This document shows, in pieces, positions 7,498 through 13,152 of a stretch of 64,000 bases of DNA. How positions within the stretch are numbered: position 1 is the first letter of the stretch; each line of letters opens with the position of its first letter. A model generated the notes under the pieces. The model searched no databases and was not told where the DNA came from. It was given only the letters and a program-made list of their open reading frames with translations. Made by a program: the position numbers and the translations under genes. The DNA is from Azospirillum brasilense (GTDB lineage Bacteria; Pseudomonadota; Alphaproteobacteria; Azospirillales; Azospirillaceae), in assembly GCF_003349955.1 (NCBI RefSeq), contig NZ_QLKQ01000016.1, positions 1 through 64,000 of the forward strand. The letters are read 5' to 3'.

Positions 7498-10400
7498 TTG
7501 TCGACAGCGCCCAAATCGAACGCTTTTTCCGGCCCCATCGAGGGCGAGGCCCTGTCCCTGCTTCAGGACAAACTGCTTCCCGGCTTCCTGACGGGACGGC
7601 GATGGTACGCCGCCAAGGACGCCGGCACGCCGACCGTGCGCATCGTCGATGCGCTGCCCCTGCCGCTGGCGTCCGGCGCCGCCCAGCTCTGCCTGTTGCG
7701 GGTGGAAGCCCCGGGGCGCGAGCCGCAGCTCTACCAGCTTCCCCTGGTGCTCGACCGCGACGGCCAAGGCAACGATGGCAAGGCCGAGGGCGCCGACCCC
7801 TTCGCCATCGCCGGCCCCGAGGCGCTTCCCTGGACGGGCGGTCTGCGCGACGGCTACGGCGACGAGGAGGTGGTGCGCGCCCTGCTCGACGGCATCCGCA
7901 AGGGCGGGGAGAGCGGCGGCCTGCGCTTCGGGCAAAGCCGCGCCCTCGACGCGGTGAAGGGCACGCTGGAGGGCGGCGCGCCGCTGCGCTGGGCCGGGGT
8001 GGAGCAGTCCAACACCTCCATCCGCGTCGGCGACTCGGCGATCCTGAAGGGGCTGCGCAAGCTGGAATCCGGCATCCATCCCGAACTGGAGGTCGGGCGC
8101 TTCCTGACCGAGGTCGCCGGCTTCCGCAACACCCCCGCCCTGCTCGGCTGGGTGGAGCGCACCGGCGACGGCGCGGCCGCCACCCTGTGCATCCTGCAGG
8201 AGCTGGTCCCCGACGCCCGCGACGCCTGGAGCCACGTCACCGCCGCCCTGGCGGAGCGCGTCGAACGCTTCGACGACGACACGGCGGACGACGTCGCCCT
8301 GATGGCGTTCATGCGCCGGCTCGGCCGCCGCACCGCGGAGATGCACCGGGCGCTCGCCACCCCCGGCGGTGGCGACGCCTTCACGCCGGAGCCGGTGACC
8401 CCGGCCACGCTGACGGGTTGGGCGGACGGCGTGCGCACCCTCGCCCGCCGCGTCCTGGGCCAGCTGCGCGAGGCCGCGCCGCGGCTGGACGCCGACCTCG
8501 CCCCCTACGCCGCGTCGCTGGCCGACAGCGAGGCGACGGTAATGCGGCAGATCGCGACGCTGACGCCGCCGCGCGGCACCTTCCACGCCATGCGCCTGCA
8601 CGGCGACTATCACCTGGGGCAGGTGCTGGCCGGCAAGGACGACCTGTTCATCGTCGATTTCGAGGGCGAGCCGATGCGCCCGCTGGCCGAGCGGCGGGCC
8701 AAGCACTGCATCCTGCGCGACGTGGCGGGGATGCTGCGCTCCATCACCTACGCCGCCGCCGGGGCACGGGCCGCCCTGCCAGCCGACCTCGACGAGGCGG
8801 CGCGCGGCGCCCGCACCGCCTGGCTGAACTGGTGGGAGGGGGAGGCGGCGGCCGCCTTCGTCGCCGGCTACCGCGAGGCCATCGGCGACTGCCCGGGCTG
8901 GCCCGCCGACGCGGCCACCGCCACGCAGCTTTTGAAACTCTTCCTGCTGGAAAAGGCGCTCTACGAGATCGGCTACGAGCTGGCGAACCGGCCCGACTGG
9001 CTGGCCATCCCGCTGGCCGGCGCCATCGGCATCCTCGGCGCCGACGCCGGGCCGGAGGTGGCCGACCGCGCGTCCGGCCCGGTCGGGCTGGCCGCCCCCG
9101 GCGCCACCCGCCTTGGCGAGGCGCGGGCCCACGCCATGCCCTTCGGCGCGCAGGTGCAGCCCGACGGCTCCGTCCGCTTCGCCCTGTGGGCGCCGGGAAC
9201 CGAGCGGGTCTCGCTGTGGCTGGAGGACACCCAGGCCCTTCTGCCCATGGTGCGGCGGGCCGACGGCTGGTTCGAATGGACCACCGCCCAGGCCCAGGCG
9301 GGCAGCCGCTACCAGTTCGAGCTTCCGGACGGGCTCCGCGTGCCCGACCCGGCTTCCCGCCACCAGCCCGACGACGTGCACGGGCCGAGCGAGGTGATCG
9401 ACCCCACCGTGTTCCACTGGTCCGACGCCGCCTGGACCGGACGCCCCTGGCACGAGACGGTGCTGTACGAGCTTCACGTCGGCACCTTCACCGAAGAAGG
9501 CACCTTCCGCGCCGCCATCGACAAGCTCGACCACCTCGTGGAGCTGGGCGTCACCGCCATCGAGCTGCTGCCGGTGGCCGATTTCCCCGGCGCCCGCAAC
9601 TGGGGCTATGACGGGGTGCTGCCCTACGCCCCGGACGCCGCCTATGGCCGCCCGGAGGATCTGAAGGCGCTGGTGGACGCCGCCCACGCCAGGGGGCTGA
9701 TGGTCTTCCTCGACGTCGTCTACAACCATTTCGGACCGGACGGGAACTACCTCCACGCCTACGCCAAGGCCTTCTTCACCGACCGGCACAAGACGCCCTG
9801 GGGCGACGCCATCAACGTGGACGGGCCGCGCAACGCCACGGTGCGCGACTATTTCATCCACAACGCGCTTTATTGGATCGAGGAGTTCCACATGGACGGG
9901 CTGCGCTTCGACGCGGTCCACGCCATCCTCGACGACAGCGACAAACTGTTCCTTCAGGAGTTGGCCGAACGCGTACAGGACGCCGTGCGCTGCCGCCGCC
10001 ACGTCCATCTCGTTCTGGAGAACGACGAGAACGAAGCCCACCTGTTGGAACGCCATCCGGAGGGCGACCCGCGCTGGCACACCGCGCAGTGGAACGACGA
10101 CCTGCACCATTGCCTGCACGTCTGGGCGTCGGGCGAGGACGCCGGCTACTACGCCGACTACGCGGGCGACGCGGCGAAGCTGGCCCGCGCCATGGCCGAA
10201 GGCTTCGCCTTCCAGGGGCACGCCTCCTCCTACCGCGGCGGCGAGGCGCGCGGCGAGCCGTCGGCGCATCTGCCGCCGACCGCCTTCGTCACCTTCATCC
10301 AGAACCACGACCAGATCGGCAACCGCGCCTTCGGCGACCGCATCACCCGCTTCTCGCGGCCCCAGGCGGTGCGGGCGGCGAGTTCGCTCTATCTGCTCGG

Positions 10401-13152: not shown

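Follow-up and report, generated by a model that had tools for sequence, protein, structure and literature searches.

Maltokinase (Mak) joined covalently to its maltose-supplying enzyme, and linked to GlgE, is known from the TreS-Mak (TreS-Pep2) proteins. In these fusions Mak forms the C-terminal part and the supplier is TreS, which converts trehalose to maltose. A second supply of maltose has been described in Pseudomonas aeruginosa, in which maltooligosaccharides are converted to maltose and the maltose is trapped by Mak for GlgE. Given maltohexaose and ATP, recombinant MalQ and TreS/Pep2 maltokinase of strain PAO1 produce maltose 1-phosphate (PMC8084333), and MalQ contributes to flux into GlgE glucan (PMC8084333; reviewed in PMC11046441). 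The P. aeruginosa enzymes are separate proteins encoded in two operons. Operons with the order treZ-malQ-treY occur in Pseudomonas (PMC8084333), in Roseomonas (locus L050), and in others, as separate genes and with no free maltokinase gene directly upstream. MalQ is also fused to neighboring enzymes of alpha-glucan metabolism in the MalQ-TreY fusion PRK14507 (loci L166, L168, L169, and L171) and the GlgX-MalQ fusion PRK14510. The open-access papers searched describe fusions of TreS with Mak, and they describe TreZ, MalQ, and TreY as separate genes.

The window analyzed here is a 64,000-nucleotide stretch of Azospirillum brasilense DNA, lying on contig C68 of a 7.1-Mb genome of 181 contigs. It contains a single frame, stop-free across 1,884 codons, in which maltokinase, TreZ, and MalQ follow one another (Table 1), with a mass of about 205 kDa estimated for the product, and this copy shares 94 to 96% identity with those of A. 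brasilense and its relatives. Translation is taken to begin at the TTG, which has gggga(g) about 9 nucleotides upstream; the open frame itself runs from position 7432. The true start of treY is probably further in than the first position of its frame, near residue 60. A 1,965-residue frame lies opposite the fusion (7414 to 13311, reverse strand) and is probably an incidental consequence of the high G+C content of the coding strand.

Table 1. Positions in the window of the fusion gene, its parts, and the gene that follows it
Feature	Residues	Position	Strand	Basis
Maltokinase-TreZ-MalQ fusion, single CDS	1884 aa	7498..13152	+	TTG start inferred
Maltokinase domain, cap and kinase-like lobes	about 11-515	7528..9042	+	TIGR02457; solved maltokinases
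Mak-TreZ linker	516-548	9043..9141	+	pLDDT below 50 at 516-539
TreZ, malto-oligosyltrehalose trehalohydrolase domain	about 549-1143	9142..10926	+	TIGR02402; solved TreZ
MalQ, GH77 4-alpha-glucanotransferase	about 1146-1865	10933..13092	+	TIGR00217, GH77, MalQ_N
treY, malto-oligosyltrehalose synthase, next gene 3' of the fusion		13149..16094	+	TIGR02401, 998 bits

A preliminary description of this DNA had read one polypeptide carrying three intact enzymes, followed by treY, and this reading holds. A Pfam and NCBIfam search of the whole protein returned maltokinase, TreZ, and MalQ in that order, each above its curated cut-off. The N-terminal domain matched TIGR02457 ("putative maltokinase") at residues 18 to 511 with 400.5 bits (cut-off, 375.05) and Mak_N_cap at residues 30 to 88, and it aligned with the solved maltokinases 4u94, 5jy7, and 4o7o. 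The complete fusion-linked maltokinases from the family search passed the TIGR02457 cut-off too. The expected motifs are present (the P-loop EQSNTS, Lys, HGD, Gln, and DFE), and both the phosphotransfer residues (Ser171, Lys184, Asp370, Gln375, and Asp387) and the maltose-pocket residues (Lys486, Tyr489, and Tyr493, equivalent to Mvan Lys413, Tyr416, and Tyr420) are invariant in 47 of 47 fusions. These phosphotransfer and pocket residues match residues studied in mycobacterial maltokinase, and mutation of Lys413, Tyr416, or Tyr420 in the Mvan enzyme practically abolishes activity (PMC4306142). Phylogenetic analysis placed the fused Mak domains in a clade of their own with full support, apart from all 31 TreS-Mak proteins sampled, so a derivation of the fused Mak from the TreS-Mak of the same genome is not supported.

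The TreZ domain matched TIGR02402 at residues 559 to 1111 with 730 bits (cut-off, 538.8), has a CBM_48 match at residues 548 to 609, and aligned with the solved TreZ structures 2bhu, 1eh9, and 3vgb. Its triad of Asp805, Glu841, and Asp938 is invariant in 40 of 40 fusions. The MalQ domain is of the long Escherichia coli type with an N-terminal domain and aligned to E. coli MalQ 4s3p; it matched TIGR00217 at residues 1280 to 1845 with 469 bits (cut-off, 205.65), GH77 at residues 1326 to 1839, and MalQ_N at residues 1206 to 1306, and its triad of Asp1625, Glu1673, and Asp1725 is invariant in 47 of 47 fusions. Pairwise dN/dS within Azospirillum was about 0.12 to 0.55 in each of the three domains, well below 1, as simple Nei-Gojobori estimates that are approximate at larger distances. 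The catalytic residues of all three domains are under purifying selection.

Compared with the known systems, the fusion differs from TreS-Mak in that the supplier of maltose would be MalQ, Mak is N-terminal, and TreZ lies between the two. No TreS domain scored above the cut-off in the fusion (TIGR02456, 44 bits versus 678). The proposed chemistry is that of the P. aeruginosa MalQ bypass, placed here on one polypeptide, and the enzymes and their order are those of the treZ-malQ-treY operons. The partners of MalQ differ from those in PRK14507 and PRK14510; the fusion scored 848 bits against PRK14507, for which 2,148 are required, and treY is a separate frame. Since every enzyme in it is already known, what is new in the fusion is the architecture, and it is not a new system. 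No description of the Mak-TreZ-MalQ order was found in the open-access papers searched, and an earlier one in subscription papers is possible; the join and its variants thus appear undescribed. The preliminary description likewise knew of none. The fusion is not peculiar to this genome, being nearly genus-wide and having a Mak-MalQ variant.

Of the 45 Azospirillum genomes sampled, 38 have the fusion frame, a count in which one frame is divided by a contig end, another is truncated at such an end, and a third contains a frame break. Four other Azospirillaceae also carry it (G077, which is Indioceanicola profundi, and G089, G090, and G100), and Belnapia moabensis has the same triple fusion. Full-length single frames occur in independent Azospirillum assemblies at 68 to 96% identity, and the fusion lies on 11 Azospirillum plasmid or chromid records and on I. 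profundi NZ_CP030127, closed replicons included. In most relatives treY directly follows; G022, G028, G089, and G100 are exceptions, in which no treY was detected next to the fusion. The triple fusion is rare outside Azospirillaceae, as the matches listed for a class-wide draw of 385 genomes included none from outside the family. Those Mak matches in the phylum sample whose neighborhood was read were TreS-Mak or free-standing Mak. The Azospirillum ramasamyi copy is one RefSeq coding sequence (WP_111068116.1; L226, 9001 to 14607) named just "malto-oligosyltrehalose trehalohydrolase," a name that hides the maltokinase and MalQ domains.

Several other arrangements of these enzymes were seen. Maltokinase-like frames without a TreS fusion adjoin glgE in two genomes (L196 and L197, from G637 and G653), and another occurs in a genus of the same family (G061; L203, 8813 to 10933). 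Outside the class, a free-standing maltokinase frame overlaps the end of a treZ frame without being fused to it (G574; L205, 4103 to 7686). A frame of about 900 residues that matches part of TreY and then TreZ (G442; L172, 5341 to 8049) is a possible partial TreY-TreZ fusion. A search of a phage collection gave one weak, irrelevant Mak match; a phage-labeled record from human feces (MT835499.1, 29731 to 30849) contains a maltokinase-like stretch with 33% identity and may be a mislabeled bacterial contig.

The preliminary description had tied the fusion to the GlgE route, and the distribution of glgE agrees with this. Among 82 Azospirillaceae genomes, glgE was present in 48 of the 48 with a Mak-containing fusion, and the fusion was present in 0 of the 25 that lack glgE; glgE without the fusion was found in 8, and G065, whose Mak piece stops at a contig end, was left unassigned. 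The association has a Fisher p of 3e-14, a value that ignores shared ancestry and is descriptive. Most glgE-less genomes are missing TreS-Mak as well, and the association is therefore one at the level of the pathway. In genus g35, which includes Niveispirillum irakense (G092), glgE occurs in 2 of 11 genomes and the fusion in those two only; G092 and G099, which lack glgE, retain TreZ and TreY without a Mak or a MalQ next to them. By the measure of glgE in the same genome, the fusion counts as a component of the GlgE pathway. In the A. brasilense genome itself, searches placed glgE on contig C33 and a separate TreS-Mak fusion on C94, in a cluster that also contains glgB, glgX, and another malQ; GlgA is present as well. 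A second, divergent TreZ (about 45% identical; TIGR02402, 606 bits) lies on contig C101 (L010, 7685 to 11822), where it adjoins an archaeal-type glycogen debranching enzyme (gde_arch), and divergent TreZ matches like this copy were found across the genus. Since each of the three enzymes has a second copy in this genome (the Mak joined to TreS, the other MalQ, and the divergent TreZ), the fusion need not be the sole source of any of its activities.

In addition to the triple fusion, six genomes, five of the related genus g37 and Azospirillum G027, have Mak joined directly to MalQ without TreZ. All of the fusions form one clade in the tree of joined Mak and MalQ domains. A single clade of the Mak-MalQ forms was rejected in this tree (p-AU about 1e-135), so the TreZ-less form arose at least twice. 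G027 is nested among the triple fusions, and in its frame the characteristic beginning of the Mak-TreZ linker (ADAGPEVADR) is followed at once by the N-terminal residues of MalQ; TreZ was thus excised in frame, leaving Mak and MalQ joined. The history of the TreZ domains is more complicated. A single clade of all triple-fusion TreZ domains was rejected (p-AU 2.4e-7, Azospirillum versus the other triples), so either TreZ modules have been exchanged or the solo TreZs of Roseomonas and Niveispirillum are fusions that lost their outer modules.

AlphaFold modeling of residues 1 to 1145 gave a mean pLDDT of 87.6 and a pTM of 0.64, with confident domains and a linker disordered at residues 516 to 539, and the Mak-MalQ form gave a pLDDT of 92.4 and a pTM of 0.70. 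The domain boundaries proposed in the preliminary description, at 9085 and 10940 (about residues 529 and 1148), fall on this predicted linker and on the TreZ/MalQ joint. The linker differs in length and sequence between species. A repeat search at the domain joints found no direct repeats and a single weak inverted pair (76% complementary) that has no obvious meaning. From the models we read the fusion as predicted domains on a string. They gave no sign, in pLDDT or pTM, of a fixed packing of Mak against its neighbor, and metabolite tunneling is therefore without structural support. Of the channeling on one molecule suggested in the preliminary description, passage of MalQ-made maltose to Mak is the only step in which the product of one domain is a substrate of another, and physical channeling as such is not supported by the models, with their moderate pTM and disordered linker. 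Transfer of TreYZ products to Mak within this protein is not supported, because trehalose is not a maltokinase substrate and would first need the isomerase TreS, a domain absent from the fusion.

On this evidence the three-enzyme fusion probably serves the junction between TreYZ trehalose synthesis and maltose-1-phosphate (GlgE) metabolism, with a covalent MalQ-to-Mak bypass. The proposal is based on the single frame, the conserved and intact domains, the near genus-wide occurrence, the association with glgE, and the repeated retention of Mak with MalQ; the activity of each domain, the flux direction, and the importance of the covalent link are inferred. That MalQ supplies Mak is proposed because the P. 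aeruginosa chemistry is that of the two activities joined in the Azospirillum protein. TreY, from the separate next gene, would cap linear maltooligosaccharides, and the TreZ domain would free trehalose and leave shortened chains for MalQ. The MalQ domain would disproportionate these short chains into longer chains for TreY, glucose, and maltose, and the Mak domain would convert the maltose and ATP into maltose 1-phosphate, feeding GlgE. The use of ATP by Mak would pull the reversible MalQ reaction forward, and TreZ would be a competing outlet on the same pool of chains as MalQ-Mak. The covalent link would give colocalization and a fixed stoichiometry rather than a proven tunnel. Against this explanation, the position of TreZ between Mak and MalQ in most species would be unexplained if Mak-MalQ were the whole point.

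A further reading, to which we give a little less than an even chance, is that the core of Mak and MalQ that recurs in these proteins works without TreS as a dedicated maltose-1-phosphate synthase, converting maltooligosaccharide and ATP to maltose 1-phosphate on a single polypeptide and feeding GlgE, and that TreZ is an optional inserted module setting how the flow is divided between trehalose and GlgE glucan.

It is less likely, though it deserves weight, that treZ and malQ, adjacent and coexpressed beforehand, and an upstream maltokinase were simply joined by loss of stop codons, giving independent domains without channeling whose sole benefit would be coexpression at a one-to-one ratio. 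The gene order of the treZ-malQ-treY operons agrees with such an origin, as do the close relationship of the MalQ and TreZ of unfused operons to the fused ones, the disordered linker, and the modest pTM. However, coexpression does not require a TreZ-less covalent Mak-MalQ with at least two origins, one of them by in-frame excision, and the fused Mak clade is still fused across several genera.

It is improbable that the Mak domain phosphorylates another sugar, such as MalQ-released glucose or glucosamine, with no tie to GlgE. The TIGR02457 score of the fusion Mak is below that of TreS-linked Mak (400 versus 520 bits), and the domain forms its own clade and weakly matches the glucosamine kinase 6hwj, but the maltose pocket is invariant, the match to solved maltokinases is far better than that to the glucosamine kinase (141 versus 46 bits), and the fusion strictly co-occurs with glgE. 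An identity as glucosamine kinase is thus disfavored by the pocket residues and the stronger maltokinase match.

An artifact of assembly or annotation, in which separate genes were joined through a missed stop or frameshift, is very improbable: although the frame of G003 breaks at about residue 667 (L129, 4748 to 10365) and the G017 assembly breaks at the Mak/TreZ boundary, there is no frameshift or stop between the domains of the A. brasilense frame, tens of independent assemblies have continuous frames, no internal start backed by a ribosome binding site is conserved at either junction, and among close relatives the divergence of the linker is as small as that of the domains. An assembly join is refuted by the occurrence of this frame in independent assemblies, on closed replicons, and across several genera. 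The frame change in G003 is seen in one species and may be a sequencing error or a young pseudogene.

As far as found, a GlgE pathway running on maltose derived from MalQ instead of TreS has been demonstrated in a single organism, where the enzymes are separate. A natural join of Mak and MalQ, kept in several genera and only alongside glgE, suggests that the MalQ-to-Mak bypass is a selected route, and the fusion offers a single protein for testing it. The public annotation is also corrected, as in plant-growth-promoting Azospirillum the TreZ-only name conceals both a maltokinase and a MalQ.
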